Shown piece by piece: positions 16,978 through 53,056 of a stretch of DNA of 64,000 nt. Under the pieces are notes generated by a model. The model was not told the DNA's origin, did not search any database, and was given only the letters and a program-made list of their open reading frames with translations. Each line of letters starts with the position of its first letter. The stretch's first letter is position 1. The position numbers were made by a program, and so were the translations under genes. The stretch is from Roseibium porphyridii (GTDB taxonomy: Bacteria > Pseudomonadota > Alphaproteobacteria > Rhizobiales > Stappiaceae): positions 1,716,001 to 1,780,000 of the forward strand of contig NZ_CP120863.1 in assembly GCF_026191725.2 (NCBI RefSeq), written 5' to 3'.

Positions 16978-17040
16978 ATGTCAATTTGTTTTTTTTGGTT
17001 TACTCGACCGCAACGCGGAAGAGGCTCCAGGGAGGTCTGC

Positions 17041-34354: not shown

Positions 34355-36607
34355 TCACGAAGCCCTTAGGGTCGCCAAGTACTTGCTCAACTCAACTTGC
34401 AAAATATCTGCCTGCGTCGACAATTCGCCAACGACCTTCACAACATGACCGGCGGCATCGCTGGACTGTTGGGCGGCCGAATTGACATCGACGATATTTT
34501 CCGACACGTCCCTCGTCCCTGATGCGGTCTGTTGGATGTTTTGGGCAATGTGCTGTGTCGCCGTATTCTGTTCTTCCACGGAAGCGGACACCGCGGTCGT
34601 CATATCGCTGATTTTGGACATTGCCTCGACAACGGTTTCGATTTCCCCGACCGTCTTCTGGGTCGAATCCTGCATCGAGCTTATCTGCTGCCTGATCTCT
34701 TCGGTGGCTTTGGCCGTTTGCGAGGCAAGTTCTTTAACTTCTGCCGCAACAACGGCAAACCCTCTACCGGATTCGCCAGCGCGTGCGGCTTCGATTGTCG
34801 CGTTGAGGGCCAGAAGATTGGTCTGCTCTGCGATGTCATTGATGAGATCTACGACATCTCCGATTTTCTGAGCCCCTTCTGCAAGGCTCTGAACCGTCGC
34901 GTTTGTCGAAATGGCCTGTTGCTCACCATTCGAAACGACGTTTTTGGCGTCTTCTACCTGCCTGGAAATTTCCTGGATAGATTGCGACAACTGCTCGGCC
35001 GCAGACGCAACAGTCTGAGCCGTCACTGTTGCTTCCTCAGAAGCACTTGCCACGGTTGTTGCTTTTGATCTTGTTTGAGCCGAAGAGTCTGACATCGACT
35101 TCGCGGTGACCGTCATTTCATGTGTGGCGTTGGAAACGTGTTCAACAACACCCATGACACTCGACTCCAACTCGTCGGCCATGTTCAACGTAGCGTTTCT
35201 CTTTTCTTCCTCAATACGCCGTTCGTTCTCTACCTGCTTCTGTCTCAATGTTTCCGTTTCAATGGCATTGTCCCGGAATACCTCGACTGCCGCAGCCATT
35301 TCGCCAACCTCATCCTGTTTGCCGACTGCGGGTATCTCAACATCCAGCTTGCCGTTGGCTAGCGACTGCATGGCATTGGTCATATCCACGATCGGATGGA
35401 CGACTGTTTTCCTGACGATCAACATAAGCACAGCAGAAACTGCGATCAGCAAGGCAACGGCTGCGGCGATGGCCATTTGCGCGTTGGCGACAGTCACAGC
35501 GCTTGCTTCGTCGGCACCATCACTGATCGCGTCAGCAGCGGAGGCAACTTTTTCCAACGCGGTCGCGACGGCGTCGGCATCTTCTTCCAAAATCTCCGTG
35601 GCAAGGTCCGCTTCGTATTCTTTCTTCAGCATGTCTCGATGCGTATCGAAAAGCTGCTCATCCAGCGCTGCCGTCGAGAACCATGTCTCAAATGCAGCCC
35701 GGAGCTTCGCGGCATCGTCCTTGTCTTCTTCGGACTCGGCCAATGAGTCGAGGATCTCCAGATAAGGCCATGCATTTTCAGCAAGGTCCTGGAACTCCTC
35801 AAACGGGATCTCAAGCGCATCGGGATCTTCTACCGCGAGGTATTCGCCTGCGGTGTCCTGCATCTCGATAATGATACGCTGCAATTTCAGGGCAGCCTCA
35901 ACGACCGGATAGTCCCTTTCAAAAAGTTCCTTCAAGATATAGTTCACGTCCGCTGCCGACGCGTTTGATGACTTTGCTATTCGATCGCCTTCTGCCTGTG
36001 CCTTGGCCATTTCCTCTTCATTTTCCAGTGCAAATTCATCGAGCATTTTGATAAGTTGTGCACCGCTGTTGTCGAACTCGGAAAGCAACTCGACAGCAGC
36101 TTTCTCCTCGTTGAGTTCTTCTGTATGCGCCAGGATCATCTCATTCGTGTGCTTGATGAATTCGCGATGCTCTCTCCTGGCGTCTTCAATGTTCGCGAGC
36201 AAGCTCTCATCCACGACAAGAGCTTCCAGCTCTGTCATGTAGACGTGGAAGAGTTCAGACTTTTCTCTAAACTCGATGGCAAGCTGTTCAACATCTGAAA
36301 TTTCTTCGTCGGCGATGATTTCCTCGGCGATCTTGTTGGTTTCCCAGATATTGGCGATCATATCGTCAGCTGTTTCAACCGAAGGTGCCGTCACATCGGT
36401 GATCTGGTTCAAAGTGCGTTCAACCGAGGAAAGAAAAGAAAGACCTGTCGCCCCGATCGCCACTCCAAGCAGGACAATGAGCCCAAGCCCAACGACGAGC
36501 CGTCCGGAAATGCCCTGGAAAATGCGCATGCGCAGTTTCTGGTTGCTGTGTTGCCTGACCGAAGTTCCTTCGAGTTCAGTTACTTTGATGTTGTCTGATG
36601 CGTGCAT
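34355..36607 (-). CDS. Methyl-accepting chemotaxis protein
   Basis: About 750-residue membrane chemoreceptor. A first membrane helix ([25 protein letters not shown]) is followed by a long, strongly acidic periplasmic helical sensor of roughly 330 residues, a second helix ([21 protein letters not shown]), a HAMP domain ([16 protein letters not shown]) and a signalling domain with the highly conserved hairpin tip [21 protein letters not shown]. The start is uncertain: ATG 36607 (MHASDN) follows AGGGGTGG, while 36649 is also open. It converges with the LysR gene. It may steer cells toward an organosulfate or its product, but no ligand can be assigned. Confidence 0.87.
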
Positions 36608-36967
36608 CAAGCCACCCCTGCGCGCTAAAGCTGGATCTGGTTCGAGCATGACCTAGAGGTTGCGAAAAACAACTGAACGTAGTTCTCAGGTTAACCGTGG
36701 GTGAGAAAACACAGGTGCTCTCTTAAGTCTTTGTTTACAAACGTGGGCAAATCACAGGACTGCTTTTTCGCTGTCATTGTCGTTTTTTTATTGCGTGAAC
36801 ATCTCCCAATACCAACATAAGGGTAAGCAATTCTTCCAATAAGAAGAAGAAAGCAAATGCCTGGGCAGTTCGATAGCATTGGCCCTTCGACAAGGTTCAG
36901 GCAATTGGGTCACGGCATCCGTTCAAACAAATGAACAAATCTGGATGCGGGATTTATTGAGTGGGCA
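36608..36967. other. Spacer between chemoreceptor and LuxR genes
   Basis: About 360 bp of A+T-richer DNA between divergent genes. It contains TTTGTTTACAAA (36730-36741), a short dyad, and A+T-rich tracts that could be promoters. No gene is convincing in it. Confidence 0.35.
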
Positions 36968-37690
36968 ATGGGCAAGACTTTATTTGTTGGGGAGTGTTAC
37001 AGGCAACTCTCGCAGGTGCGAACCAACTACGATGTTTTCAAGTTTCTCAAGAAGCTTGGCGACGAGTTCTGTTTCGAGCGATTTGCCGTGCTGTTTTTGC
37101 CGGATCAAAATTCGACCGAGTTGTCGTCGCACATGATCGTCAGCAATTGGCCACCCGAGCTCATTCGCGCCTACGACGAAATGAAATTGTTGGTGAACAG
37201 TCCTATCGTCGCAGAGCTGCGGAGGTCTCTTGCACCGCTTGAATGGGAACTTGAAACCGTCAACAAAGAGCGCACTCCGGAAGAAATCCAGAACTCTGTC
37301 AGTCTTTTCAAGGACTTTAGTATGCTGGGCGGCGTATACTTTCCGACATACGATGCTTTGGGACGAAGGGGGGCGGTGTCGTTTGCAGGCCAACGCGGCA
37401 AACTCGACCCGGACGAACTGGCCACGTTACACTTGCTTGCTCTTTACACCTACAATCAGGTGTCTGAGGTTGCCGACGCGGTCTCTGAACCCAATGATCA
37501 ACTGACACCGCGCGAACGCGAATGCATTTACTGGTCGTCTGAGGGAAAGACCAACAATGAGATCGGTGTCATCTTGTCGATTTCTGAAAACACCGTCTCC
37601 AGCTATATGATCTCGGCTGCCAAGAAACTCGGTGCGTTGAACCGGGCGCACGCAATTGCATTGGCAATCCGTGCGGGCATAGTGTCCTAG
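36968..37690 (+). CDS. LuxR-family regulator, probably a solo (autoinducer-binding domain plus HTH)
   Basis: 240-residue protein with an N-terminal autoinducer-binding domain (about 15-160) and a C-terminal LuxR helix-turn-helix, LTPRERECIYWSSEGKTNNEIGVILSISENTVSSYMISAAKKLG (about 178-221). In the ligand pocket, SNWPPELIRAYDEMKLLVNSPIVAELRRSLAPLEWE keeps the Trp, Tyr, Pro and second Trp of the family, but the Asp that binds the acyl-homoserine lactone amide (normally Asp-Pro) is Ser. No LuxI-type synthase is in the window. It is therefore likely a solo that senses another ligand or a borrowed signal. Confidence 0.8.
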   Translation: MGKTLFVGECYRQLSQVRTNYDVFKFLKKLGDEFCFERFAVLFLPDQNSTELSSHMIVSNWPPELIRAYDEMKLLVNSPIVAELRRSLAPLEWELETVNKERTPEEIQNSVSLFKDFSMLGGVYFPTYDALGRRGAVSFAGQRGKLDPDELATLHLLALYTYNQVSEVADAVSEPNDQLTPRERECIYWSSEGKTNNEIGVILSISENTVSSYMISAAKKLGALNRAHAIALAIRAGIVS

Positions 37691-38857
37691 CGATGGTTTC
37701 CACGGGATCTGGTCTTCGTTTCCCAAGACTGGGCAACTCATTTGAAAACCGCCTTGGCCTGACGCCGCGATTGGCTTCTGTTCTGCTGCAAGAATTGCGC
37801 ATCCTGATTGAACGGTATTGGAAACCGTTCAATTTCAAGCGCCCACAAAGCACCTTGGCTACCGACCACCGGCACCGGACACCATCGTCCGGACGGGCCA
37901 AACCCCAGTCGCGCACTAACAATCAAATCTGGACTACTTCAGGTGCGGCTGGTCAATCGATCCTGCCTCAAAGATAGCTGAACTTGGGGACCTTTTTCTT
38001 CCGATGATCATGCGGAACAAATTGCTGGATCCGATGATGTCGGCTTGAGCTCTAATCCTGCGCGGCTACAACCTGCTATCATGCGGCGGCGTAGACCTTT
38101 GAACACAACGAACTGTGTCAATCTTTCCGCTCGTTTATTGGAGACTATTCCTGCGCGTGAGATGGATGTGCGGGCAACCATGAAGGCGATGAGTTCTTCA
38201 GGCGTTTTGGAAGTTGCAAACCAGACCGAAAGGGAAACCCGACCAGAAAGTCGTCAGTTCGTCCTGTTCTGTCGCACGCGTGCACGTTTTTGAAACTTGG
38301 AAAAACGCTCCGGTGCTTTCAGCTGACTGCCGGGCGTACGGCATCTCGTGCAACACCGGTTGTCAAGTTTGGTTATATGACAACGCAGCGAAAACTAGTG
38401 CGCAGCCAAGAATTCAAAAGCTGTAAATTTTCGCAGCGGAGGACCGCTACCGGCACTACCCCAGCCCGACGATTTGTATTTCTGCTTGGTGGTACCTTCT
38501 CATATCTTGGATGCCCCGTTCTTCTAAGATTACCGGTGGGCCAATTCAAAGCGCAGGATCATCTCAGAGGGAGCATTGGCACTCGGCACCATGCCCTTCG
38601 TTTTCGGGATAACTTTCCCTGGTGATTTGTGCCACGCGTTCCCTTTGAAATCGTGACTGAAAGTGCCCGAGCCTATCGTGGCTTGCCTCAATGCCTGCGA
38701 AGAAGGCTTTATTAATCCGGAGCCAATTCGACAACAACTGAGTCGCGCAATTACATTTATGCGCTGTGACCAAAATAGTTAATTGGGTGTCCAAAAAAGT
38801 TAACTCAGCTCACCAATTCAACGGCAGACTGAATCTCCAGGATGGAGACTTTTTGCC
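37691..38857. other. 1.17-kb gene-poor region
   Basis: Between the LuxR gene and the Rieske operon I find only short frames in all directions, none with a recognised domain or a good ribosome-binding site. It contains a perfect 10-bp inverted repeat, ATTGAACGGT (37807-37816) and ACCGTTCAAT (37824-37833), with a 7-base loop. The region could be decayed gene or mobile-element sequence, or hold a small RNA; I cannot support a specific call. Confidence 0.4.
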
Positions 38858-39979
38858 ATGTCATCTTTGTCGCACGTTACAGCCGGCTACGATGTGGATC
38901 CGGCGCGGTCGAATTCACTTGTTGCTTCAGCTTATACGGATGCTGAGTGGTTTCGAGCGGACATTCAGTCGATTGTTGGTCGCACCTGGCAGTGGGTGTG
39001 TCATGTCGAGAAGACACGAAAACCCGGTTCATATGTGACCGCTGAGATTGCCGGCCATCCCATCGTGGTTGTTCGTGGACGTGATGGTATCCTTAGAGCG
39101 TTTTATAATGTCTGCAAGCATCGAGCACATGAGCTCATGTCGGGAGAAGGCACGACGACTCGGATCATGTGTCCCTACCATGCCTGGGTCTACAAGCTTG
39201 ACGGCCAGCTTGCCCGCGCACCGCATACTGAAAACCTTCATGATTTTCACGTCGGTGAAATCTGCCTTGATCAGGTTAAAGTTGAAGAATTCTGCGGCTT
39301 TGTGTTCGTAAATCTTGATCCTGATGCTGCCGCACTTTCTGAACAGTCAGGAGACCTGGAAACGGAGATCCGCCATTGGGCGCCGGACGTCGATAAACTG
39401 ACCTTCGGGCACCGGCTGACATACGACATCAAATCCAACTGGAAAAATGTCGTCGACAACTTTCTGGAATGTTACCACTGCCCGACGGCGCACAAGGACT
39501 TTTGCGATCTTGTGGACATGGACACCTACAAGGTGACCACGCATGGGATCTATTCAAGCCATATGGCCGATGCCGGTCAATCCTCCAACACCGCCTATAA
39601 TGTTTCGAATGCCACGGTTCGCACGCATGCGGTTTGGTGGTTGTGGCCGACAACCTGCCTTATGCGTTACCCGGGACGGTCCAGCATGATTGTGCTGAAT
39701 ATCATTCCGGTCGGTCCGGACCGCACACTGGAAACCTATGACTTCTTCCTGGAGACCCCGGAACCAAATGAGATGGAACGAGATGCCATCCGCTATTTGG
39801 ACGAAGTGCTGCAGGTTGAGGACATTGGCCTCGTTGAAAGCGTTCAAAGGGGTATGAGCACACCGGCTTTCACGCAAGGACGGATTGTGCACGATCCTGA
39901 GGGATCGGGGAAATCCGAGCATGCGGTCCACCACTTTCACGGTCTGGTCCTAGACGCTTACACACGAGGTGCTGCGTGA
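38858..39979 (+). CDS. Rieske non-haem iron oxygenase, alpha subunit (quaternary-amine type)
   Basis: 373-residue oxygenase with an N-terminal [2Fe-2S] Rieske domain, ligands Cys86-x-His88 and Cys105-x2-His108 (NVCKHRAH, MCPYHAW), and a C-terminal mononuclear iron site around DNFLECYHCPTAHKDF. NFLECYHC is typical of the group containing choline, glycine betaine and carnitine oxygenases. Such enzymes demethylate or cleave quaternary amines and need a separate reductase, which I do not see nearby. It is first in a seven-gene operon and overlaps the choline-sulfatase gene (GTGA). A tight substrate call is not possible. Confidence 0.85.
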   Translation: MSSLSHVTAGYDVDPARSNSLVASAYTDAEWFRADIQSIVGRTWQWVCHVEKTRKPGSYVTAEIAGHPIVVVRGRDGILRAFYNVCKHRAHELMSGEGTTTRIMCPYHAWVYKLDGQLARAPHTENLHDFHVGEICLDQVKVEEFCGFVFVNLDPDAAALSEQSGDLETEIRHWAPDVDKLTFGHRLTYDIKSNWKNVVDNFLECYHCPTAHKDFCDLVDMDTYKVTTHGIYSSHMADAGQSSNTAYNVSNATVRTHAVWWLWPTTCLMRYPGRSSMIVLNIIPVGPDRTLETYDFFLETPEPNEMERDAIRYLDEVLQVEDIGLVESVQRGMSTPAFTQGRIVHDPEGSGKSEHAVHHFHGLVLDAYTRGAA

Positions 39980-41511
39980 ACCGCCCCAACATTGTGGTGG
40001 TCATGGCGGACCAGTTAGCGCCCCACTTTACCGGAGCCTACGGACATCCCGTCGCAAAGACCCCACATTTGGATGCGCTCGCTAAGCGAGGCATGCGGTT
40101 TGACGCGGCGTATTGCAATTCCCCACTATGCGCCCCGTCACGTTTTGCGTTTATGTCGGGACAATTGATCAGCCGGATCGCTGCCTATGACAACGCATCC
40201 GAATTCAAGGCCTCAATCCCGACCTTTGCCCATTACCTGAAAGCCCTTGGATATCGAACCTGTCTGTCCGGCAAGATGCATTTTGTCGGCCCGGACCAGA
40301 TGCACGGGTTCGAAAACAGAGTGACGACAGATATTTATCCTGCCGACTTTGCTTGGACACCGGATTGGGAAGCACCGGATGAGCGGATCGACAAGTGGTA
40401 TCACAACATGCAGACCGTCAAGGAAAGCGGTGTTGGCCTGGCGACATTCCAGATCGACTATGACGAGGAAGTCGGTTTTGCGGCCCAGCGCTGGCTGATT
40501 GATGCCGCAAGAGACAAGGCGCAGGGTCTCGATGCCCCCTTTGCGCTTGTGGCCAGCTTCATCCATCCTCATGACCCTTATGTTGCGCGGCCGGAGTGGT
40601 GGAACCTTTATGACGATGTCGATATTGCGCTTCCGCATTTCACGCCTGCCCCGGAAGACCAGGATCCGTTCTCTCGCCGCCTGATGGACGGTATCGAGGC
40701 GTCCTATGTCCCGCTGACGGAAGCGGAAATTCGCAAGGCGCGGCACGCCTATTTGGCGAATGTCAGCTACTTCGACAGCAAGTTGGGTTTGTTGGTTCAA
40801 ACTCTTGAAGAGACAGGAGAACTTGAGAACACGATCATCGTCGTGACCGCGGACCATGGAGACATGCTGGGTGAACGCGGTCTTTGGTACAAGATGAATT
40901 TCTTCGAGCATTCCGCGCGCGTGCCACTGGTCATGGCAGGACCCGGCATTGTGCATGGGCACGCGGAAAATGCCTGCTCCCTGGTCGATCTGCTGCCGAC
41001 ATTTCTTGAAATTGGCGGCGGTGGAAAAGACATGCTCGGAATGCCTATCGATGGCCGCAGTTTGTTGCCGCTGGCGCGCGGTGAACCGGACCCGGTCGAT
41101 GAGGCAATCGGAGAATACTGCGCAGAAATGACGCCCTATCCCGTCGTCATGATCCGGCGGGGCCGGCTTAAGTACATCCATTGTGACGCTGATCCGCCCC
41201 AGCTTTATGATCTGAGCAAGGATCCGTTTGAGGCGACAAATCTGGCGAACGACCCCGCTTATGCCGAGGCAGCAGCGGAGTTCGCCGCGGAGGTCGCAAG
41301 AAGATGGGACGGCGACGATCTCAGAGCAAAGGTGGTTGCCACGCAAAAGGCGCGGCGCGCCTTGCATGCGGCTATGGAAGCAGGTGCAGGTGAGACCTGG
41401 GATTATGACCCGCCATCGGATGCCAGCCGCCAGTATGTACGCAATCACATGGACTGGACCGCTGCTGCCGGACGATATCGATTTCCTCCAACCACGGACA
41501 AAGACCCATGA
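39976..41511 (+). CDS. betC: Choline-sulfatase-like enzyme (sulfatase E)
   Basis: 511-residue sulfatase strongly resembling choline-O-sulfatase. The activation motif is CNSPLCAPSRFAF with Cys52; metal ligands in VVMADQL (Asp12, Gln13) and VVTADHGDMLGERGLWYKMNFFE. The C-terminal tail with YVRNHMDW and RYRFP is diagnostic of BetC, which needs it for oligomerisation. It would release sulfate and choline or a similar quaternary amine in the cytoplasm. The start codon is GTG, overlapping the Rieske gene. Unusually, it is not with betA, betB or betI but with BKACE and carnitine-dehydrogenase-like genes, so the real ester may be a different quaternary amine. Confidence 0.88.
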   Translation: MNRPNIVVVMADQLAPHFTGAYGHPVAKTPHLDALAKRGMRFDAAYCNSPLCAPSRFAFMSGQLISRIAAYDNASEFKASIPTFAHYLKALGYRTCLSGKMHFVGPDQMHGFENRVTTDIYPADFAWTPDWEAPDERIDKWYHNMQTVKESGVGLATFQIDYDEEVGFAAQRWLIDAARDKAQGLDAPFALVASFIHPHDPYVARPEWWNLYDDVDIALPHFTPAPEDQDPFSRRLMDGIEASYVPLTEAEIRKARHAYLANVSYFDSKLGLLVQTLEETGELENTIIVVTADHGDMLGERGLWYKMNFFEHSARVPLVMAGPGIVHGHAENACSLVDLLPTFLEIGGGGKDMLGMPIDGRSLLPLARGEPDPVDEAIGEYCAEMTPYPVVMIRRGRLKYIHCDADPPQLYDLSKDPFEATNLANDPAYAEAAAEFAAEVARRWDGDDLRAKVVATQKARRALHAAMEAGAGETWDYDPPSDASRQYVRNHMDWTAAAGRYRFPPTTDKDP

Positions 41512-42302
41512 TGCTGACTGGCAAGACGGCCCTTGTGACCGGAGGGCGCGGAGGTATTGGACGCGCGATCGTTGCACGCTTCATCAAAGAGGGCGCAACG
41601 GTTTTCGCAGCTGATTTGACGCCTGGAGGGTCGCTGTCAAGCGATGCCGATGACGGCAGCACCTTTGTGAAGCTTGACGTCACGCTGGAGCAGGACGCGA
41701 TCAATGCGATGGAAACCGTTGGTGCCCATGCGGGCAAGCTTGATATTCTCGTAAACGCCGCGGGTATCGAAATTGAAAAGACCATCGAGGAAACCACGCT
41801 GGAGGACTGGAACCGCAGCTTTGCGGTTAACGCGACGGGGACGTTCCTGACGTCCAAATATGCTTTGCCGCTGATGCGTGAGGCCGCCAAAACTGGGTCG
41901 AGCGCAAGCCTGATCAATTTCGGGTCCTATGATGGCTTCATCGCCGATCCGGGTCTCGCGGCCTATTGCGCGACCAAGGGAGCCGTCCATGCTCTGACAC
42001 GCGCCATGGCCTGCGATCATGGCCCCGAAGGCATTCGGGTGAATGCAATCTGTCCGGGCTACATAGATACACCGATGTTGCAGAGTTTCTTCAGCGGCGA
42101 AGGATCCGGCGGAGCTGGTGGAAACATTGAATCATTGCAGCAAGCTGTCCGGGATGTGCATCCTCTGCGCACATACGGCACACCAACCGATATCGCCAAT
42201 CTGGTGACTTGGCTTGCATCGGACGAGGCACGTTACGCTTCTGGCCAGCTTTGGGTACTTGACGGAGGTCTGTCTGCACAGGTGCAGCAGATGAAGTTGT
42301 AA
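41508..42302 (+). CDS. Short-chain dehydrogenase/reductase 1 of the BetC cluster
   Basis: 264-residue classical SDR: TGGRGGIGRA cofactor loop near residue 11, NAAGIEIEKT, catalytic Ser/Tyr/Lys in NFGSYDG and YCATKGA, then NAICPGYIDTPM. Its ATG overlaps the choline-sulfatase stop (ATGATG), so it is coupled. It probably oxidises the alcohol released by sulfatase E or a later hydroxy intermediate. The second SDR of the cluster at 44665 is a relative, and both keep the catalytic triad. Confidence 0.85.
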   Translation: MMLTGKTALVTGGRGGIGRAIVARFIKEGATVFAADLTPGGSLSSDADDGSTFVKLDVTLEQDAINAMETVGAHAGKLDILVNAAGIEIEKTIEETTLEDWNRSFAVNATGTFLTSKYALPLMREAAKTGSSASLINFGSYDGFIADPGLAAYCATKGAVHALTRAMACDHGPEGIRVNAICPGYIDTPMLQSFFSGEGSGGAGGNIESLQQAVRDVHPLRTYGTPTDIANLVTWLASDEARYASGQLWVLDGGLSAQVQQMKL

Positions 42303-43234
42303 TGCCGCGATCCGTCATCATAACCTGCGCGCCGACAGGCGGTATTCATACGCCGTCGATGTCGCCGTATCTGCCGGTCACACCTGCCGAAATTGCGACC
42401 GCTAGCATCGAGGCGGCGGAGGCCGGAGCATCAATTATCCATCTCCATGCACGCGATCCGGAAACGGGCAAGCCGGATCCGAGGCCCGAAACCTTCAAAC
42501 AATTTCTGCCGGTCATCAAGCAGGCGACCGACGCGGTCGTGAACGTTTCAACAGGTGGCGGTCTCGGAATGAGCATCGATGAACGGCTGCTTGCGGCCAC
42601 GGATGCCAGTCCTGAGATGGCATCGCTCAACATGGGGTCGATAAATTTCGGGATCTTCCCGATGCTTCAGAAATACCATGAGTTCCAGTTCGACTGGGAG
42701 CGCCCTTTTCTGGAAATGACCGAGGATTTCATCTTTCCGAACACCTTCCGGACCATCCGCTACGCGATAGAAAAGCTTGGTGGTGAGCATGGAACCAAAT
42801 TCGAATTCGAGTGTTATGATCTCGGCCACCTCTACACCGTAAAATGGTTCGTCGATCAGGGACTGATCAAACCGCCTTTCTTTATCCAGATGGTCTTCGG
42901 AATTTTGGGTGGAATGGGCGCAGATATCGACAATCTCGTTCATCTTCACAAGAAAGCAAACGAACTGTTTGGTGCCGATTCCTACGAGTGGTCCGTTTTG
43001 GCGGCAGGCCGCCACCAAATGCCGTTCGCAACTCAAAGCGCAATACTTGGCGGCAATCTCCGCGTTGGTCTGGAAGACAGCCTTTTCATCGGCAAAGGTG
43101 AATTGGCGACGTCCAATGCACAGCAGGTAAAGCGCGTTCGTACAATCATTGAAAATCTGGGACTGACGGTGGCTGCCCCGGCCGAAGCACGCGAGCGTCT
43201 GGGTTTGAAAGGGGCTGACCGTGTCGGATTTTGA
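42302..43234 (+). CDS. Beta-keto acid cleavage enzyme (BKACE, DUF849)
   Basis: 310-residue zinc enzyme of the BKACE family, founded by 3-keto-5-aminohexanoate cleavage enzyme. It begins SVIITCAPTGGIHTPSMSPYLPVTP and has the zinc-ligand pair IIHLHARDP (His47, His49). The family condenses a beta-keto acid with acetyl-CoA to give acetoacetate and a CoA ester; members acting on 3-dehydrocarnitine yield betainyl-CoA. Its start overlaps the SDR stop (TAATG). With the carnitine-dehydrogenase-like gene at 45399, this is the main reason to propose a beta-keto acid intermediate. Confidence 0.87.
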   Translation: MPRSVIITCAPTGGIHTPSMSPYLPVTPAEIATASIEAAEAGASIIHLHARDPETGKPDPRPETFKQFLPVIKQATDAVVNVSTGGGLGMSIDERLLAATDASPEMASLNMGSINFGIFPMLQKYHEFQFDWERPFLEMTEDFIFPNTFRTIRYAIEKLGGEHGTKFEFECYDLGHLYTVKWFVDQGLIKPPFFIQMVFGILGGMGADIDNLVHLHKKANELFGADSYEWSVLAAGRHQMPFATQSAILGGNLRVGLEDSLFIGKGELATSNAQQVKRVRTIIENLGLTVAAPAEARERLGLKGADRVGF

Positions 43235-43246
43235 AGAGGACAGACC

Positions 43247-44665
43247 ATGCAGACGAAACTGCTGATAAACGGCGAACTGGTGGACGGTGACGGCGAGGCG
43301 CGGAGTGTGCTCGACCCCGCGACAGGCAATGAAGTTGCCAAGGTAAAAGATGCCAGCCCCGAACAGGTCGTAGCGGCAGTTAGAGGCTCAGCGGAAGCCT
43401 TTGAAACATTCTCGTCGTCCTCGCCTGCGGAACGTTCAGCTCTTCTCCTGCAGATCGCGGATGCTATTGAAACCAATAGCCGGGATCTTGCTGAGCTTGA
43501 AAGCCTTGATGTTGGTAAGCCATGGCCATCGGCACATGACGACGAAATGCCTTTGACAATCGATGTTTTCCGTTTCTTTGCAGGCGCGGCAAGAACGATG
43601 ACGGGGTCTGCGGCAGGTGAATATGTTGCCGGCCACACGTCCATGATCCGCCGAGATCCGGTGGGGCCGGTCGCGGCCATCGCGCCCTGGAACTACCCTT
43701 TGATGATGGCTGCCTGGAAACTGGCCGCACCTATCGCGGCCGGATGCTCTATCGTCCTCAAGCCGTCAGAGCTGACACCCCTATCAACCTTACGAATGGC
43801 AGAGCTTCTTAAAGACATCTTGCCGGCCGGGCTGTTGAATGTCGTTCATGGCCCAGGACCCACCGTTGGTGATCAGCTCATCAACAGTCCTCAGATGGAA
43901 GCGATCAGCGTCACGGGGTCGCCTGCAACGGGAATGGCCGCGATGCGGGCCGCTTCCAATCAGATCCGGCATGTTCACTTGGAATTGGGGGGCAAAGCGC
44001 CGGTGATCGTCTTTGACGATGCCGATCTCGAAGCTGTTGCCGAGACCATTCGCTACGGCAGCTTTTTCAATGCGGGGCAGGACTGTGCGCAGCCATGCCG
44101 GATTCTTGTTGCCGAAGCCTCTTATGAGAAACTGCTGACTGCGATTGTCAATCAGGTCGACCAGATACAAGTCGGTGCCCCCAGGACAGAGGGTACGGAG
44201 ATGGGGCCCCTTGTGTCTTCAGGTCACAGGAGCCGTGTGGCCGCCTTTGTGGACCGAGCGCGGTCTTCCTGCAAAGTGGTCGCTGGGGGCGAAAGCGGTG
44301 AGGGGAGTGGTTTCTTCTATAGACCTACCATTGTTGCAGATGCAGACAACAATTCTGAGATTACGCGAAATGAAGTGTTTGGACCCGTCGTATCGGTCTC
44401 ACGATTTGGCGACGCTGACGAGGCACTGAAAACGGCGAATTCCGGATCTTACGGGCTGGCATCCTCCGTCTGGACAAAAGATGTCGGACTTGCAATGCGT
44501 ATGACGTCGAAGCTGCGCTACGGTTTCACCTGGGTCAACACGCACGGTGTAGCGACACCAGAGATGCCGTGGGCTGCCATGAAAGGGTCGGGTACCGGCT
44601 GCGACATGTCAGTCTATGCACTGGACGCCTACACATCGATCCGTCACGTCATGGTAGCGCACTGA
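43247..44665 (+). CDS. Aldehyde dehydrogenase (aminobutyraldehyde/betaine-aldehyde type)
   Basis: 472-residue NAD(P) aldehyde dehydrogenase. The proton-accepting Glu sits in [17 protein letters not shown] and the catalytic Cys in [33 protein letters not shown] cofactor segments surround residue 145. The GQDC context resembles gamma-aminobutyraldehyde and betaine-aldehyde dehydrogenases. It follows BKACE by 12 bp and overlaps the next SDR (TGATG). It would oxidise an amino or ammonio aldehyde from the pathway. Confidence 0.85.
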
Positions 44666-45399
44666 TGAGACTTTCAGGGAAGAAGGCTTTCGTTACCGGA
44701 GGACGTTCTGGCATTGGACGGGGTATCGTCGACGCCTTTCGCGCCGAGGGAGCGGACGTTGTCGCCTGCGGTCGCGGGGAGCAGCCTGACGGATTTGAAG
44801 CGCGCTGGATTCGCCTCGATGTTTCCGACCCGAACGCTGTTTTTGATGCGGCAAGATCTCTCGGTGCACTCGATATTGTGGTGAACAATGCAGGCGTTCA
44901 GGTAGAAAAAACGGTTGTGGACAGTTCCGATGAGGACTGGGACCGGGTTATCGGAACCAATGCACGCGGCGTCTTCAATGTTTGTCGGGCGTTCATACCG
45001 CAAATGTCTTTGGGCGGTTCAATCATAAATATCGGATCAATTTCCGGAACAGTCGCCGATCCATCCTTGGCTCTTTACAATGCTTCCAAAGCGTTTGTGC
45101 ATGGGTTGACGCGTTCGGTTGCCGTCGATCATGGTCCGGCTGTCAGATGTAACGCAATCTGCCCGGGTTGGATCGAAACAGGCATGCTGGAAGCCGGATT
45201 CGACCTCGCGATGGATCCGAAGAAGGCCGAGACTGATGCGATTGCACGTCATCCAATCCGGCGTTTCGGCCAACCATCAGACATTGCAGCGATGGCAGTT
45301 TGGCTTGCTTCTGACGATGCGAGCTTTGCTACGGGGCAAATGTTCACACTCGATGGCGGTATGACTGCTGCCTCACCGCTTAACCCTGGATTGTTCTAA
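44665..45399 (+). CDS. Short-chain dehydrogenase/reductase 2 of the BetC cluster
   Basis: 244-residue SDR from ATG 44665 ([20 protein letters not shown]), chosen because TGATG couples it to the aldehyde dehydrogenase; the upstream codons of the longer frame belong to that gene. Cofactor motif TGGRSGIGRG, NNAGVQVEKT, catalytic NIGSISG and YNASK, and NAICPGWIETGM. It has the same plan as the SDR at 41508, so the two may be diverged copies acting on consecutive alcohols. Confidence 0.85.
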   Translation: MRLSGKKAFVTGGRSGIGRGIVDAFRAEGADVVACGRGEQPDGFEARWIRLDVSDPNAVFDAARSLGALDIVVNNAGVQVEKTVVDSSDEDWDRVIGTNARGVFNVCRAFIPQMSLGGSIINIGSISGTVADPSLALYNASKAFVHGLTRSVAVDHGPAVRCNAICPGWIETGMLEAGFDLAMDPKKAETDAIARHPIRRFGQPSDIAAMAVWLASDDASFATGQMFTLDGGMTAASPLNPGLF

Positions 45400-46328
45400 T
45401 GAAACGGATTTCCCATGTTGCCATTCTGGGAGCGGGCGTAATCGGCGCCAGTTGGGCAGCCTTGTTCCTGGCCTCCGGACGTAGTGTTTCAGTATTCGAC
45501 CCAGACACAGATTCAGAAGGGAGCGTCCGGGCATATATCGAAAAAGCCTGGCCTGCACTTGAGAAACTCGGGCTCGTAGATCGGGCTCAACCTGATGCAT
45601 TGTCATTTGCAAACACGGCCGCAAAAGCCGTTGCGGAAGCCGATTTCGTCCAGGAAAACGTTCCTGAACGTCTTCCTGTCAAACATGCTACCTATCGCGA
45701 AATCGAAGCGGCTTTGAAACAGGATACGATTGTTTCGAGTTCTACGTCCGGCCTAACGTTGGAAGCTTTGCAGGATGGTTGGAAAGACCCGGCTTGTTTT
45801 CTACTCGGACATCCATTCAATCCTCCACACTTGATCCCGCTCGTGGAACTTACCGCAAACTCAAGAACCGGCGCGAACGTTTTGGAGAGGGCGGAAACAT
45901 TCTATCAGGACGTAGGGAAGGTCACGATACGCATAAACAAAGGCATGCCCGGTCACGTTGCCAACCGCTTGCAGGCCGCTGTTTGGCGGGAAGCGATTTA
46001 TATGGCAATCGAAGGCGTTGCGAGTGTCGAAGATATCGATAAGGCAATGTGGGCTGGTCCCGGTTTGAGGTGGGCCTCAATGGGGCCGACCATGCTGTTT
46101 CACCTTGGGGCGGGAGAAGGGGGGCTCCGGTCGTTCTGCGAGCACTTCAAGGATACGTTCAATGGTTGGTGGGACGACCTCGGTGACCCACGCTTAGACG
46201 ACCAGATTGTCGAGCAACTCGTGGCTGGACTGGAAGAGCAGGCATGCGGACAAACTCCAGAAGATCTGTCGCGTGTTCGAGATAAAATGCTGGTGGCAAT
46301 TCAAACTGCTACACGCGATTTACGCTAG
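45399..46328 (+). CDS. L-carnitine dehydrogenase-like enzyme (3-hydroxyacyl-CoA dehydrogenase superfamily)
   Basis: 309-residue NAD-dependent beta-hydroxy-acid dehydrogenase. The Rossmann loop is VAILGAGVIGASWAA; SSSTSGL, the His motif LGHPFNPPHLIPLVE and the downstream GPGLRWASMGPTM follow the L-carnitine dehydrogenase plan. It would oxidise a 3-hydroxy acid to a 3-keto acid for BKACE. It overlaps the preceding SDR (TAATG) and is the last gene of the operon; its stop overlaps the convergent AraC gene by 4 bp. L-gulonate 3-dehydrogenase is the main alternative. Confidence 0.83.
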   Translation: MKRISHVAILGAGVIGASWAALFLASGRSVSVFDPDTDSEGSVRAYIEKAWPALEKLGLVDRAQPDALSFANTAAKAVAEADFVQENVPERLPVKHATYREIEAALKQDTIVSSSTSGLTLEALQDGWKDPACFLLGHPFNPPHLIPLVELTANSRTGANVLERAETFYQDVGKVTIRINKGMPGHVANRLQAAVWREAIYMAIEGVASVEDIDKAMWAGPGLRWASMGPTMLFHLGAGEGGLRSFCEHFKDTFNGWWDDLGDPRLDDQIVEQLVAGLEEQACGQTPEDLSRVRDKMLVAIQTATRDLR

Positions 46329-47437
46329 TCGCCCAAATCTGAATTCGTCTCAGTATCACTGTGCTGGTGCGCTGTCGGACTGTGCATTGGCCAAGCCCTG
46401 AACTCAAAGGGCACACGTCCCTCGACGCGGTCCTTGTTGGGTGGCAAACCAAATTTTTGCTGATAAGAGCGACTGAAATGGACTTGGCTGTTAAATCCTG
46501 AGGCTGCCGCCACCTCACTGAGTTTCATCTCCGTTTGCGTAACCAGTCCGCGTGCACGGTCCAGTCTGATGTCGCGGTAGTACTCTACAGGCGTCTTGCG
46601 AACAAACTGAGTGAACAGACGACCCAGCTGCCGCTGCGAAATTGCTATGCGCCTGCAGATTTCTGGGATGGATATCGGGTCTTCGAGATTTGCTTCCATC
46701 AAGTCTATTGCTCTTCTGACTGTATTTGGCGTCACTTGTCCCGTAGGTTCGATCACCTTGGGATTCTGCGATCTGCCGGGTCCGCGTACGTCGTGATGAA
46801 ACACATATCTTGCGGCCGCATTCGCAATACTCAATCCGCAAAATCTGTTCAGAAAGTACAACGCGGCATCGGAAGCCGCTGTCCCGCCACAGCACGTAAA
46901 AATTCTGCCATCAACAACAAAGAGGTCTTCCAAAACTGATGTGTTGGTCGCTGTTTCTTTAAGGGCATCGATATGCTCGTAGTGAACCGTTGCCCTCTTG
47001 TCGTTCAAAAGGCCGGCATTCGCCAAAACGAAAGCGCCAGTGTCAATTCCACCGATTGTCCTCCCATCGCGCGCCCACCGTTTCAGCGATGAATTAATGA
47101 CATCCGCATAGCTTTGTTCGGGCGTCCAGCTCGAACTGACCACGACAAGGTCGGCTTTTAACGAGGCGGCATCTGTCAATGCCTTTGTATGTACTTCGAG
47201 GCCACTGCTGGATGGTAAAAGTCCTCCTTGAGCCGAATAAATATTCCATTGGAATTTCGAAGACCCAATCAGGTAGTTTGCAGCTCGAAAGGGATCGATA
47301 AACGACATGGTCGCAGCAAGATTGAAGTAGGGTGTCGCAAGAATGACCAATTCCAAAACATAGATCCAATCAGGAGGCCAACGCCGCGTTTCTTGAACTA
47401 TCAAAGTACCAAAAAGCGCGCTTACGGTGAAGTTCAA
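46325..47437 (-). CDS. AraC-family regulator with DJ-1/PfpI sensor domain (GlxA/CdhR type)
   Basis: 370-residue regulator with an N-terminal amidotransferase-like sensor (about 30-215) and a C-terminal AraC DNA-binding domain (about 230-330; SIPEICRRIAISQRQLGRLFTQFV and LSEVAAASGFNSQVHFSRSYQQKFG). Members such as GbdR and CdhR activate glycine-betaine and carnitine catabolism. It converges with the carnitine-dehydrogenase-like gene, 4 bp overlapping. Its family supports a quaternary-amine inducer for the BetC cluster. The start is uncertain; homologues often begin nearer YVLELVILATP. Confidence 0.83.
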   Translation of the reverse strand: MNFTVSALFGTLIVQETRRWPPDWIYVLELVILATPYFNLAATMSFIDPFRAANYLIGSSKFQWNIYSAQGGLLPSSSGLEVHTKALTDAASLKADLVVVSSSWTPEQSYADVINSSLKRWARDGRTIGGIDTGAFVLANAGLLNDKRATVHYEHIDALKETATNTSVLEDLFVVDGRIFTCCGGTAASDAALYFLNRFCGLSIANAAARYVFHHDVRGPGRSQNPKVIEPTGQVTPNTVRRAIDLMEANLEDPISIPEICRRIAISQRQLGRLFTQFVRKTPVEYYRDIRLDRARGLVTQTEMKLSEVAAASGFNSQVHFSRSYQQKFGLPPNKDRVEGRVPFEFRAWPMHSPTAHQHSDTETNSDLGD

Positions 47438-48634: not shown

Positions 48635-49687
48635 ATGGTGAACCCAAAACTCGAAGCTCTCAGGGAAAAGTTCGGCAACGCCGATGGCGGGACATTGTTC
48701 ACACCAAAGTATCAGAAGATCGCCTCGAAAATATTCGCCGAAGGCGGAAAGCGACCAGCCCCTTATTCCGGAATTCCGACACTTCTCGATGCTCCGCAAG
48801 CGACCTTGGAACAGGCGAGCGAGCTCCAGGTTGCCCTTTACGGTGCGCCCATGGATCTGGGCGTTACAAATCGAAACGGCGCTCGTTTCGGGCCGCGAGC
48901 TTTGCGCTCCATCGAGCGCGTAGGCCCTTACAATGATGCTCTCGAAACAGCGCCATTGCACGAAATGGCTGTCGCTGATCTTGGCGATGTGCCCTTCAGC
49001 AGCCGGTTCGACCTTGGCCTAAGTCACGAAGAAATTGAAAATTACGTGAGGCAGATTGTTCTTGCCGGGGCGATACCAATCGGTGTTGGCGGCGATCATT
49101 CCATCACGCATCCAATCTTGCGTGCGGTCGGCCAAAACGAACCTGTGGGCATGGTGCATATTGATGCGCATTGCGATACGGGCGGCGCTTATGAGAATGA
49201 GAAATTCCACCATGGCGGGCCTTTCCGTAACGCTGTACTGGATGGCGTTTTGTCGCCTGAGCGTACGATCCAGATCGGTATTCGCGGTGCCGCCGGTTAT
49301 ATCTGGGAGTTTTCTGAAATGTCCGGCATGACGGTGGTCGAAGCCAAAGACATAACAGATGCAAATTTTCCGGACATAATTGAGAAAACGCGTCAGGTTG
49401 TCGGAAGTGGCCCGACCTATCTGTCCTTTGATATCGACAGTCTGGATCCCGCCTTTGCCCCTGGCACCGGCACACCGGAAATAGGCGGCCTGACCACGCG
49501 GGAAGCACTGCGTCTGATCCGCGGTCTCAAGGGCCTCAATTTCGTTGGTGGCGACGTCGTTGAAGTTGCTCCTGCCTATGATCAAAGCACCAACACTGCC
49601 CATGCAGGTGCTCAGATGCTCTTCGAAATCTTGAGCCTCATGCAGTTTTCACCCTCCCTTCCCAGGACACAAGGAAAAGACGTATGA
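48635..49687 (+). CDS. Ureohydrolase (guanidinobutyrase/guanidinopropionase/agmatinase family)
   Basis: 350-residue manganese ureohydrolase. Ligands: His155 (VGGDHSITH), Asp177, His179 and Asp181 (HIDAHCDTG), Asp266 and Asp268 (SFDIDSLDPAFAPGTGTPE). KFHHGGPFR after HIDAHCDTG resembles guanidinobutyrase/guanidinopropionase more than agmatinase. It would split a guanidino acid into urea and an amino acid or amine. GAGG precedes the ATG. Its stop overlaps the RidA start. The N-terminal ~70 residues before LYGAPMD are typical of the longer family members. Confidence 0.86.
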   Translation: MVNPKLEALREKFGNADGGTLFTPKYQKIASKIFAEGGKRPAPYSGIPTLLDAPQATLEQASELQVALYGAPMDLGVTNRNGARFGPRALRSIERVGPYNDALETAPLHEMAVADLGDVPFSSRFDLGLSHEEIENYVRQIVLAGAIPIGVGGDHSITHPILRAVGQNEPVGMVHIDAHCDTGGAYENEKFHHGGPFRNAVLDGVLSPERTIQIGIRGAAGYIWEFSEMSGMTVVEAKDITDANFPDIIEKTRQVVGSGPTYLSFDIDSLDPAFAPGTGTPEIGGLTTREALRLIRGLKGLNFVGGDVVEVAPAYDQSTNTAHAGAQMLFEILSLMQFSPSLPRTQGKDV

Positions 49688-50028
49688 CCATCGAGCGCTT
49701 TGAGAAAGGAAGCCGTATGAGCCAGGCTGTGGTTCATGGTAACACAGTCTATCTGGCAGGTCAGATTGGCGAAGGTCCGGACATGACACGTCAAACACAG
49801 TCCATGCTGGCCGAAGTGGATCGTCTCCTGGCATCTGTGGGAAGCAGCAAGTCCAGCATATTGTCCGCACAGATCTGGGTTTCCGACATGGGAGATGTTG
49901 ACGCTATGAACAACGTCTGGGATGCATGGATCGATGTGCAAAATCCACCAGCGCGCGCTTGTGTGGAAAGTAAGCTCGTTTCGCCTGATTTCTTGGTCGA
50001 AGTCATGATTATCGCCGCCAAGGAATAG
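49684..50028 (+). CDS. RidA-family protein (enamine/imine deaminase type)
   Basis: 114-residue RidA/YjgF protein. VVHGNTVYLAGQIGEGPDMTRQTQSMLAEVD matches the family N-terminal sheet, and ARACVESKLVSPDFLVEVMIIA carries the conserved Arg that binds the substrate carboxylate. It begins as ATGA overlapping the ureohydrolase stop. Such proteins hydrolyse reactive imines or enamines made by PLP or amino-acid oxidising enzymes, fitting the aminotransferase of this locus. Confidence 0.87.
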   Translation: MTIERFEKGSRMSQAVVHGNTVYLAGQIGEGPDMTRQTQSMLAEVDRLLASVGSSKSSILSAQIWVSDMGDVDAMNNVWDAWIDVQNPPARACVESKLVSPDFLVEVMIIAAKE

Positions 50029-50187
50029 CGGCTCGTGGGGGCGCAAGGGTCGGAGTGTCGTTGACGCTTAGGCTTGGGGGACCCTTGTTTGTTGCGGTCG
50101 ACGATTTCTTCCCGCGGCCTTTGCGGGACTACCCTTGCGACACGCGGTTGGTTGTGCCTTTCGCTGAAACGACAGAGCCTTGATTTT

Positions 50188-50208
50188 GGCTGGCCATTCA
50201 GGCCAGCC
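50188..50208. terminator. Perfect hairpin between convergent RidA and ABC ATPase genes
   Basis: GGCTGGCC (50188-50195), loop ATTCA, GGCCAGCC (50201-50208), in the 237-bp spacer where the two operons meet. It may act as a bidirectional terminator. No long T-run follows on either strand, so confidence is moderate. Confidence 0.5.
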
Positions 50209-50265
50209 TCACAACGGCTCTCCATGAAAAGCGCAACAATTCCTCTGTTTCTGCGTCTCTTCAGA

Positions 50266-51315
50266 CTAGTCGACGGGAAAGACAGCTAATCGAGCCGGAT
50301 CAGCAGTCAGGTGGACGAGATCTCCTACCTGGAATTCGCTGTCATCGGAGGCCGAACCGCGCACCCGGATTTCCTGATCCTTTACACTGACGAGCCACTC
50401 TTTGAAGGCGCCGAGATCACGGGCAAACACAACACGCCCGGTTGACCCCTCATTTGCCTGCGCTGGACGCAAGGAAATGTTCTCTGCTCGCACAGCAACG
50501 TTGACAGCTGTGCCGGGTTCATAGTCAGCCGCCGCTTTGAAGCTATTCCCAAAGATTGCCAGTTGCCTGTTCTGACCAATCTCGGCTTGAACAAGGTTTG
50601 CAGCACCAATGAAATCAGCCACCAGGCTGTTGGCTGGTTGGCGGTAAACTTGAGTTGGTGTGGCTGCCTGTTGAACCTTCCCATGGTCCAGAACCACAAG
50701 TTCATCAGCCAGCATCATTGCTTCGGTTTGATCGTGCGTGACCAAAACCGTTGTAACACCGAATTTTTGCTGCAACCTACGCAGTTCAATCTGCATGTTG
50801 TCGCGAAGTTTCGCATCCAGTGCAGACAATGGTTCGTCCAGAAGAAATAGCTTTGGTTTGATTGCGAGTGCTCGGGCAATTGCCACTCTCTGTCGCTGTC
50901 CGCCTGACAGCGCCGAAACGGTGCGATCTGCAATGTGGGGAAGCTCAACAACGTTGAGAAGTTCTTCTACACGTTCACGCTGTTCCTTTGCCGTCGTCCT
51001 GCGAAGTTTCAGCCCATACGCGATGTTTTCAGCGACACTCATGTGAGGGAACAAAGCAAGCGATTGGAATACCATTCCGAACCCACGCTTGTGCGGCGGC
51101 ACTTCTGAGATATCGGCGCCATCCAGCAGCAAACGCCCTTCCGTGGGTTTTTCAAAACCAGCGATAATTCTCAGCAGTGTTGTCTTGCCGCAGCCGGATG
51201 GTCCCAAAAGACAGACAAACGAACCACGTTCAATCTTCAGGTCAACTCGATTAAGCGCAGTTACGGGCCCGAACGACTTTGAAACCGCTTCAATGTTCAA
51301 ATGCGTATTAGTCAC
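50266..51315 (-). CDS. Spermidine/putrescine-type ABC transporter, ATP-binding protein
   Basis: 349-residue PotA-type ATPase from a GTG at 51315 (preceded by AAAGG), with Walker A GPSGCGKTT, signature LSGGQRQR, Walker B LFLLDEPLSALDAKLR and switch THDQTEAM, then a TOBE domain (VRAENISLRP). A longer frame starts at 51345 inside the permease gene. It is last in the binding protein, permease, permease, ATPase operon and powers import for the guanidino locus. Confidence 0.87.
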   Translation of the reverse strand: MTNTHLNIEAVSKSFGPVTALNRVDLKIERGSFVCLLGPSGCGKTTLLRIIAGFEKPTEGRLLLDGADISEVPPHKRGFGMVFQSLALFPHMSVAENIAYGLKLRRTTAKEQRERVEELLNVVELPHIADRTVSALSGGQRQRVAIARALAIKPKLFLLDEPLSALDAKLRDNMQIELRRLQQKFGVTTVLVTHDQTEAMMLADELVVLDHGKVQQAATPTQVYRQPANSLVADFIGAANLVQAEIGQNRQLAIFGNSFKAAADYEPGTAVNVAVRAENISLRPAQANEGSTGRVVFARDLGAFKEWLVSVKDQEIRVRGSASDDSEFQVGDLVHLTADPARLAVFPVD

Positions 51316-51328
51316 GTTGAGCCTTTTG

Positions 51329-52174
51329 TCAGAACAGGTTGCCACGTCCGGCGATCAGCTTGTCGACAAGCAGCACCAGGAAAACATCAACCACAATTAT
51401 GAAGACGGAAAGCGCCAGAGTCGCAGGATCCAGCGACGACACTGTTCGACTGTACATCCAGATGGGCAACGTGCTGACATCAATCGTGTACATGAAGAAG
51501 GTGACGGTGAATTCGTTGAAACTTATTATGAGCGCAAAGATCAAACCGGCGAGAATGCCAGCTTTCATCAGCGGGATGACAACATCCCAAATCGCCCGTA
51601 GTGGCGACGCGCCGAGTGAAATCGCGGCTTCTTCGATTTCGACGCTGATGCCGTTCATGGCGCTCAAGCAGTTGCGCAAGACAAACGGCAATACAAGCGC
51701 AATATGCGGAATCGCAATTCGCCATATGCCGAGATCCAGTTGCAGACTTTCGGCAATGAGAAGAAAGGCAATGCCCAGCATCACCAATGGAAACACCAAG
51801 GGCAAAGTGAATAGCAGTTCCATGCCTTCACGCAAGTTTCGGCCGCTGCGTGCCAGCGCATAGGCAAGCGGAACACAAACCAGTGTTGAAATGATCATCA
51901 CCAAAAACGCGACCAGGAGGCTCGTAATGGTGGAATCGACGACCGATTGCGCGCTGGATGGATCCTCGTTTGTGAACAGCTGCAAGACTTCGAAATACCA
52001 GCGGAACGAAAACTCCGTGGGCGGAAAACTCGAATATTCGGATGCGGAAAACGACATGATCGTCACAACGATCACCGGCAGCGCGGAGATGAGAATTCCA
52101 ATGCTTGCCAGAAAAAGGATCACGAACCGGTAGGTTCCACCACCTTCTGTTGGGAGAAGTCCGACCCGCATCAA
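51329..52174 (-). CDS. ABC transporter permease (PotC type)
   Basis: 281-residue six-helix permease; EAA loop SVEIEEAAISLGASPLRAIWDVVIPLMKAG is the PotC-type pattern. Its ATG overlaps the PotB-type stop. The C-terminus AGRGNLF is typical. It forms the channel with the preceding permease for polyamine-like or guanidino substrates. Confidence 0.87.
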   Translation of the reverse strand: MMRVGLLPTEGGGTYRFVILFLASIGILISALPVIVVTIMSFSASEYSSFPPTEFSFRWYFEVLQLFTNEDPSSAQSVVDSTITSLLVAFLVMIISTLVCVPLAYALARSGRNLREGMELLFTLPLVFPLVMLGIAFLLIAESLQLDLGIWRIAIPHIALVLPFVLRNCLSAMNGISVEIEEAAISLGASPLRAIWDVVIPLMKAGILAGLIFALIISFNEFTVTFFMYTIDVSTLPIWMYSRTVSSLDPATLALSVFIIVVDVFLVLLVDKLIAGRGNLF

Positions 52175-53028: not shown

Positions 53029-53056
53029 GATTGAGGGTCACTTAAATCCTTGCCTT

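Follow-up and report, generated by a model that had tools for sequence, protein, structure and literature searches.

A conserved marine operon joining a BetC-like sulfatase and a Rieske oxygenase, with a possible role in the degradation of a sulfated quaternary ammonium compound

The 64,000-nucleotide stretch analyzed here (hereafter the window) comes from Roseibium porphyridii (Alphaproteobacteria, Rhizobiales; contig NZ_CP120863.1, positions 1,716,001 to 1,780,000), and at window positions 38858-46328 it holds an operon in which the gene of a sulfatase resembling choline sulfatase (BetC) adjoins that of a Rieske oxygenase. Judging from sequence comparisons, we give a probability of about one half to the reading that this marine operon, which occurs across families and on plasmids, serves to break down a quaternary ammonium compound that is O-sulfated and distinct from choline-O-sulfate, and that perhaps has an acidic group as well (i.e., a carnitine-like compound). 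Its annotation as choline sulfatase plus dioxygenase is probably mistaken. The remaining operon genes encode two short-chain dehydrogenases (SDR1 and SDR2), a beta-keto acid cleavage enzyme (BKACE), an aldehyde dehydrogenase (ALDH), and a protein resembling carnitine dehydrogenase (CDH). A paper on this operon was not found in the open-access literature.

Conservation of the gene set and co-occurrence of its two key genes

The genome collection was scanned with the window sulfatase and the best 80 of 395 confirmed relatives were kept; the locus counts rest on these. Further operon genes lie with the sulfatase gene in 69 of these 80 loci (counts for each gene are given in Table 1), and because 39 of these linked loci hold all seven genes, the operon is not a chance grouping. 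The single linked locus without a Rieske gene (L110) starts at a contig end. Absences also fell at or near contig ends for all three loci without SDR2, six of the nine without the CDH-like gene, three of the 23 without ALDH, and one of the 19 without BKACE (L115), and the losses of BKACE and ALDH occur separately. The original prediction had proposed a search for conserved gene order: the set stays together, but the order itself differs between lineages (Rieske-sulfatase or sulfatase-Rieske). Linked loci were found in Ruegeria, Roseovarius, Leisingera, Shimia, Roseibium/Labrenzia, Rhizobiaceae-type metagenome-assembled genomes (MAGs), and two gammaproteobacterial MAGs (L076 and L116). In addition, the sulfatase occurs in five plasmid records with 76-78% identity; each copy bears the annotation choline-sulfatase and adjoins a ring-hydroxylating oxygenase gene.

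Co-occurrence was analyzed in 297 genomes of the host's order, with the sulfatase type defined by at least 58% identity and the operon-type Rieske gene by at least 57%. Identity to the window sulfatase was 58-73% in ten genomes besides the host, followed by a gap and by values of 54% or less elsewhere. All ten genomes carry the operon-type Rieske gene (as a fragment at a contig end in G114), as does 1 of the 73 genomes that have only other BetC-like sulfatases; only in two genomes, G144 and G150, is the Rieske gene present and this type of sulfatase absent. The hypergeometric probability of this association is P = 5e-17 before allowing for kinship, and the ten genomes span seven families; the two genes are adjacent in six of them. 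A second sulfatase-Rieske pairing was considered in G037, G036, and G113, where BetC-like proteins of a third group share contigs with Rieske homologues of 48-49% identity, and was rejected on account of the approximately 5-13 kb of other genes between them.

Sequence signatures of the operon enzymes

The sulfatase is of the class I formylglycine type with the BetC C-terminal domain (PF12411), and it leaves no room for a signal peptide. Its score exceeds the TIGR03417 equivalog cut-off of 433 bits, and canonical copies in the order sample reach 904. Residues (in S. meliloti BetC numbering) were counted in 84 operon-type or sulfatase-only sequences (73 + 11; L045, with a stop in its translated stretch, was left out) and in 31 canonical sequences, namely the 30 top TIGR03417 scorers, host copy included, and S. 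meliloti BetC; lower scorers were examined separately. The catalytic residues C54, N75, K102, H104, H201, D296, H297, and K309 and the ammonium-binding residues W129, H145, and E386 are invariant in both sets. According to the accessible parts of PMC9063841 and PMC5870055, the latter three hold the quaternary ammonium group, W142 is a tunnel residue, and L499 lies within 5 Å of the choline nitrogen. These last two positions are changed: position 142 is Lys in 84/84 operon-type versus Trp in 31/31 canonical sequences, and position 499 is Trp in 84/84 versus Leu in 31/31. Both K142 and W499 were also found in all five plasmid copies. Position 500, where BetC has the tunnel/gate residue N/D500, is Thr in 81 of the 84. 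Altogether, among the 147 columns that both sets conserve, 22 distinguish operon-type from canonical sequences. A tree was built from 71 of the 124 aligned sequences with the trait columns omitted, and in it the canonical BetC clade stood apart with an SH-aLRT support of 100 and a branch of 1.73. Tree and alignment place the sulfatase in a subfamily that is sister to choline sulfatase.

The nearest solved structure to the Rieske protein by sequence is CntA (6y8j), with 261 bits over residues 24-365 of 373. For two others, 3vca and 4qup, which we take to be Stc2, the match is confined to residues 20-223, with about 108 bits. Phe occupies CntA position 203 in 77/77 operon-type Rieske proteins, in which E205, C206/C209, Y225, Y295, and the Rieske and iron ligands are likewise constant (77/77; H208 in 76/77). 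An aromatic residue at position 203 defines group Va (carnitine, choline, and benzalkonium oxygenases) and Asn the demethylating group Vb, as stated in the portion of PMC7948474 available. Since the operon-type proteins have the aromatic signature, demethylation of the ammonium part, as the original prediction had it, is unlikely, and oxidation or cleavage beside the nitrogen appears likelier. The carnitine pocket of CntA (F258, N270, Y315, and F319) is not kept, these positions being H, M, mostly L (L/V/I), and L. As for the redox partner, no ferredoxin-reductase gene was found in the window operon, and one of this type directly follows the operon in just three loci (L057, L097, and L150).

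The BKACE matches PF05853 with 346 bits (cut-off 24.8) and groups with 3e02, 3e49, and 8rio (BKACE15 in the accessible part of PMC11961710), not with the copy in the carnitine cluster of the host, to which it is 35% identical and from which it differs by a different loop and an extra segment. No BKACE copy of at least 60% identity was found elsewhere in the 16 genomes whose operon is without BKACE (copies of 51-58% occur in three), and BKACE is accessory rather than core. Because the operon BKACE differs in type from that of the host's carnitine cluster and 19/69 loci have none (L115, among these, is truncated at a contig end), a dehydrocarnitine route is unsupported as the core of the pathway, and the proposed cleavage of 3-dehydrocarnitine found no support. 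The same holds for the naming of the last gene as a carnitine dehydrogenase: the nearest models of this 3HCDH-type protein are two carnitine dehydrogenases, and both scores fall under the curated cut-offs (PRK07531, 259 of 592 bits; PRK07066, 256 of 414 bits).

Possible substrates and routes

A canonical betC gene is present elsewhere in the host genome (881.9 bits, 48% identity to the operon sulfatase), as is a carnitine cluster (G000:C1:259300-267500) with a CDH-thioesterase fusion of 730.9 bits and its own BKACE, SDR, and GbdR-like regulator. In the host, therefore, neither choline-O-sulfate nor carnitine has to be a substrate of the operon enzymes. Together with the altered pocket and the tight co-occurrence with the Rieske gene, the separate betC makes a substrate other than choline-O-sulfate plausible, and the conserved operon supports the pairing of a BetC-type sulfatase with quaternary-amine (carnitine-like) enzymes; on both points the original prediction stands. 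The gene set, its conservation, the co-occurrence, and the residues are observed; beyond them, we propose a route in three steps. Going by its family and residues, the formylglycine-type sulfatase would first remove sulfate, leaving a hydroxylated betaine. The Rieske enzyme, as its group Va signature suggests, would then oxidize a carbon beside the ammonium group, either with release of trimethylamine and formation of an aldehyde or, in the manner of choline monooxygenase, with an aldehyde as product. Lastly, the two SDRs and the CDH-like enzyme may oxidize hydroxyl groups and, where present, the ALDH would take an aldehyde and the BKACE would cut the resulting beta-keto acid with acetyl-CoA. 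The GbdR-like regulator probably controls the operon, and an importer of the betaine type (ATP-binding cassette, ABC) adjoins it in some strains.

Several observations weigh against a substrate other than choline-O-sulfate or against this route. The Rieske gene is absent from 7 of 11 sulfatase-only genomes. Position 142 is tolerant: among 20 distinct sequences of other BetC-like sulfatases, nine have Ser there, and the unlinked sulfatases of three genomes with the Rieske gene have Ala or Ser, so that K142 need not bind a carboxylate. Moreover, the 84 copies are one clade and represent one evolutionary event. Group Va includes choline monooxygenase, so that C-N cleavage is not the sole option for the Rieske enzyme, and a search of the host for a trimethylamine monooxygenase gave only generic FMO-like matches (at best 125 bits). 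A conserved transporter was not found when neighbors were clustered over 78 loci, no non-operon gene family occurring in more than ten of them. Canonical BetC (>800 bits) was found in only 3 of the 11 order-sample genomes with this sulfatase (the host, G024, and G029) and in 7 of 21 further genomes (7/10 with the operon and 0/11 sulfatase-only). Since it is missing from most of these 32 genomes, the operon-type enzyme is the best BetC-like one there and could serve choline-O-sulfate. Finally, canonical CDH is about as frequent in genomes with this sulfatase (6/10) as in other BetC-like genomes (30/73; p = 0.32). Including the host, it occurs in 7/11 order-sample genomes and is non-discriminating, for which reason it was rejected as a sign of carnitine release; in 15 of 21 sulfatase-bearing genomes a CDH exceeds the fusion cut-off, or in 20 of 21 when CDHs without the thioesterase part are counted.

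The main rival explanation is an alternative pathway for choline-O-sulfate itself, in which the sulfatase would yield choline, the Rieske enzyme would act as a choline monooxygenase, the ALDH would form glycine betaine, and the SDRs, CDH-like enzyme, and BKACE would serve other products. The score above the equivalog cut-off, the retained quaternary-ammonium pocket, the lack of canonical BetC in 8/11 order-sample and 14/21 further genomes, the placement of choline monooxygenases in group Va (in the part of PMC7948474 cited above), and the match of the ALDH to betaine-aldehyde dehydrogenases all agree with it. As a reference for such activity, S. meliloti BetC acts on choline-O-sulfate with a kcat/KM of 4.8e3 per s per M (from the accessible text of PMC5870055). 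On the other hand, canonical BetC is also present in the host and in seven of the ten operon genomes that were tested via their loci, and the canonical betC of R. pomeroyi (75% identity to S. meliloti) is required for growth on choline-O-sulfate, as far as an excerpt of PMC4744692 reports. The ALDH is missing from 23/69 loci (3 cut by contig ends), the pocket changes are fixed, and neither the two SDRs, which are the partners kept most constantly, nor the 3-hydroxy-acid dehydrogenase would have an obvious function on choline. We consider this explanation rather unlikely.

Improbable is the full pathway of the original prediction, which ran from O-sulfo-carnitine through carnitine and 3-dehydrocarnitine to BKACE, giving betainyl-CoA and acetoacetate, with the Rieske enzyme demethylating the ammonium part. 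The operon does contain CDH-like and BKACE genes, its Rieske protein is nearest to CntA among solved structures, and canonical CDH, which could use free carnitine, is present in 6/7 sulfatase-only genomes without the Rieske gene. However, the CDH comparison above (p = 0.32) lends it nothing, the BKACE is dispensable and of another subfamily, and the Rieske enzyme is not of the demethylase type. Given free carnitine, the operon dehydrogenases would be redundant in the host because of its carnitine cluster, and a paper on carnitine sulfate was not found in the open-access literature. Least probable of all is that the sulfatase is a passenger that joined, in some lineages, an operon degrading an unsulfated hydroxybetaine: operons without a linked sulfatase do exist (L148, L150, L152, L156, L238, L239, and L240), the smallest conserved pair is Rieske plus SDR1 (L157 and L158), and in G144 and G150 the Rieske gene occurs in the absence of a sulfatase of this type, but six genomes without a linked sulfatase (G044, G037, G009, G317, G320, and G323) carry one of the same clade elsewhere, with a different pocket in G044 and G037, and the 10/10 co-occurrence and the linkage that persists despite changes of gene order speak against it.

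Should the operon indeed act on an O-sulfated quaternary ammonium compound different from choline-O-sulfate, it would connect the marine cycles of organic sulfur and methylated nitrogen by way of an as yet unrecognized substrate, and the subfamily annotated as choline-sulfatase would probably act on something else. The two fixed pocket residues provide a testable sequence rule that splits the subfamily from BetC, and the operon offers a direct route to the substrate. As a tentative extension, marine algae or animals might make a sulfated carboxylated quaternary ammonium osmolyte (i.e., a carnitine-type sulfate ester), for which the operon would be the dedicated desulfation and degradation system common to Roseobacters, Roseibium, and Granulosicoccaceae; if so, many choline-sulfatase annotations of the subfamily would be wrong.

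Operon layout, neighboring genes, and comparison with known systems

The seven open reading frames lie head to tail in the list of open reading frames and the DNA of the window, and the coupled operon of the original prediction was confirmed in its joins from the DNA and in its families from hidden Markov models (HMMs). The joins are GTGA (Rieske/sulfatase), ATGATG (sulfatase/SDR1), TAATG (SDR1/BKACE), a 12-bp gap (BKACE/ALDH), TGATG (ALDH/SDR2, with the ATG of SDR2 at 44665), and TAATG (SDR2/CDH-like). The GbdR-like regulator gene, which was absent from the earlier gene list, follows the last gene on the opposite strand. The ALDH also matches betaine-aldehyde dehydrogenases in HMM and solved-structure comparisons, and an informative relative of SDR1 or SDR2 was not found in the search of solved-structure sequences. 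HMM scans revealed no betA, betB, or betI among the operon genes or the scanned neighbors.

Table 1. Genes of the operon and its adjoining regulator, in window coordinates
Feature	Position	Strand	Linked loci (n = 69)	Evidence
Rieske monooxygenase oxygenase subunit, group Va-type, CntA-like	38858..39979	+	68	HMM Rieske and Ring_hydroxyl_A; CntA 6y8j match; signature residues
BetC-like sulfatase, distinct subfamily (K142, W499, S. meliloti BetC numbering)	39976..41511	+		TIGR03417 692.7 bits; alignment to 6fny; subfamily residues; tree
SDR1, short-chain dehydrogenase	41508..42302 (start 41508 or 41511)	+	69	HMM
BKACE, accessory	42302..43234	+	50	PF05853; NF053538 499 bits (cut-off 430)
Aldehyde dehydrogenase, gamma-aminobutyraldehyde type, accessory	43247..44665	+	46	PRK13473 662.5 bits (cut-off 615); 6c43 547 bits
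SDR2, short-chain dehydrogenase	44665..45399	+	66	HMM
3-hydroxy-acid dehydrogenase, carnitine dehydrogenase / lambda-crystallin type	45399..46328	+	60	PRK07531 and PRK07066, under cut-off; 3f3s 129 bits
GbdR/GlxA-like AraC-type regulator	46325..47437	-	59	NF052371 GbdR 215 bits, under cut-off 480

Of 96 loci, nine have matches to betaine-type ABC genes (L048 partly, L057, L070, L073, L097, L102, L150, L221, and L223). In two of these, the Roseovarius plasmids pTHAF9_b and pTHAF8_b (L221 and L223), a betaine/proline/choline-type transporter lies divergently beside the regulator and an IS30 transposase adjoins; close homologues of the transporter occur at L073. A large flavin-dehydrogenase gene, dimethylglycine-dehydrogenase-like by eye, was found near 6 of 78 loci. 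Upstream of the operon, a long gap with putative transposase remains by eye (37690-38857) follows genes of a chemotaxis receptor and a LuxR-type autoinducer-binding regulator (34355-37690). On the far side, arginase-family and RidA genes adjoin with an ABC transporter (48635-54148), perhaps a guanidino-compound pathway; this block recurs in the same order only at L039 and L040 among 80 loci.

The window also holds an island (10771-33170) with four more sulfatases, all on the minus strand (10771-12252, 15416-16894, 21444-22979, and 28238-29890), two formylglycine-generating-enzyme-type genes (16978-18006, plus strand; 27281-28234, minus strand), a 2-keto-3-deoxygalactonokinase, and two ABC transporter sets; it may perhaps break down a sulfated galactose-type polymer. 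Elsewhere in the host, a Rieske paralogue of 34% identity (L185:7765-15643, in G000:C1:1360001-1376000) lies beside a large flavin dehydrogenase and two genes that are enolase-superfamily-like by eye, a cluster that presumably resembles the proline-betaine cluster. Another BKACE, 59% identical to the operon copy (L184:4314-11739, in G000:C1:2028001-2046000), stands with genes of an SDR, a 3HCDH-type dehydrogenase, and an ABC transporter, and appears to belong to a separate beta-keto-acid pathway.

Among known systems, the betICBA operon for choline-O-sulfate shares with the operon the formylglycine sulfatase with PF12411, the catalytic set, and W129, H145, and E386. Nevertheless, the operon sulfatase is only 48% identical to host BetC and forms a separate clade with K142 and W499, and the operon has no betA, betB, or betI and a GbdR-like regulator instead. 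In the cntAB pathway, carnitine is split into trimethylamine and malic semialdehyde, on which an aldehyde dehydrogenase then acts (as described in the available portion of PMC11353897). The operon resembles it in the Rieske residues F/Y203, E205, C206xxC209, Y225, and Y295 and in having an ALDH in 46/69 loci, and differs from it in the changed carnitine pocket, a reductase gene in only three loci, and the added sulfatase and dehydrogenases. Likewise, the L-carnitine dehydrogenase/BKACE pathway (in P. aeruginosa, from part of PMC12482172, and in the host cluster) brings together an SDR, a CDH-type dehydrogenase, a BKACE, and a GbdR-like regulator. In the operon, however, the CDH-like protein is under cut-off and without the thioesterase part, the BKACE belongs to a different subfamily, and the host has a separate cluster of its own. 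Finally, the Arctic SAR11 island (CDH, BKACE, ALDH, and gamma-butyrobetaine dioxygenase) is, like the operon, a marine quaternary-amine cassette with CDH, BKACE, and ALDH, whereas the sections of PMC12421898 that describe it name no sulfatase or Rieske enzyme.

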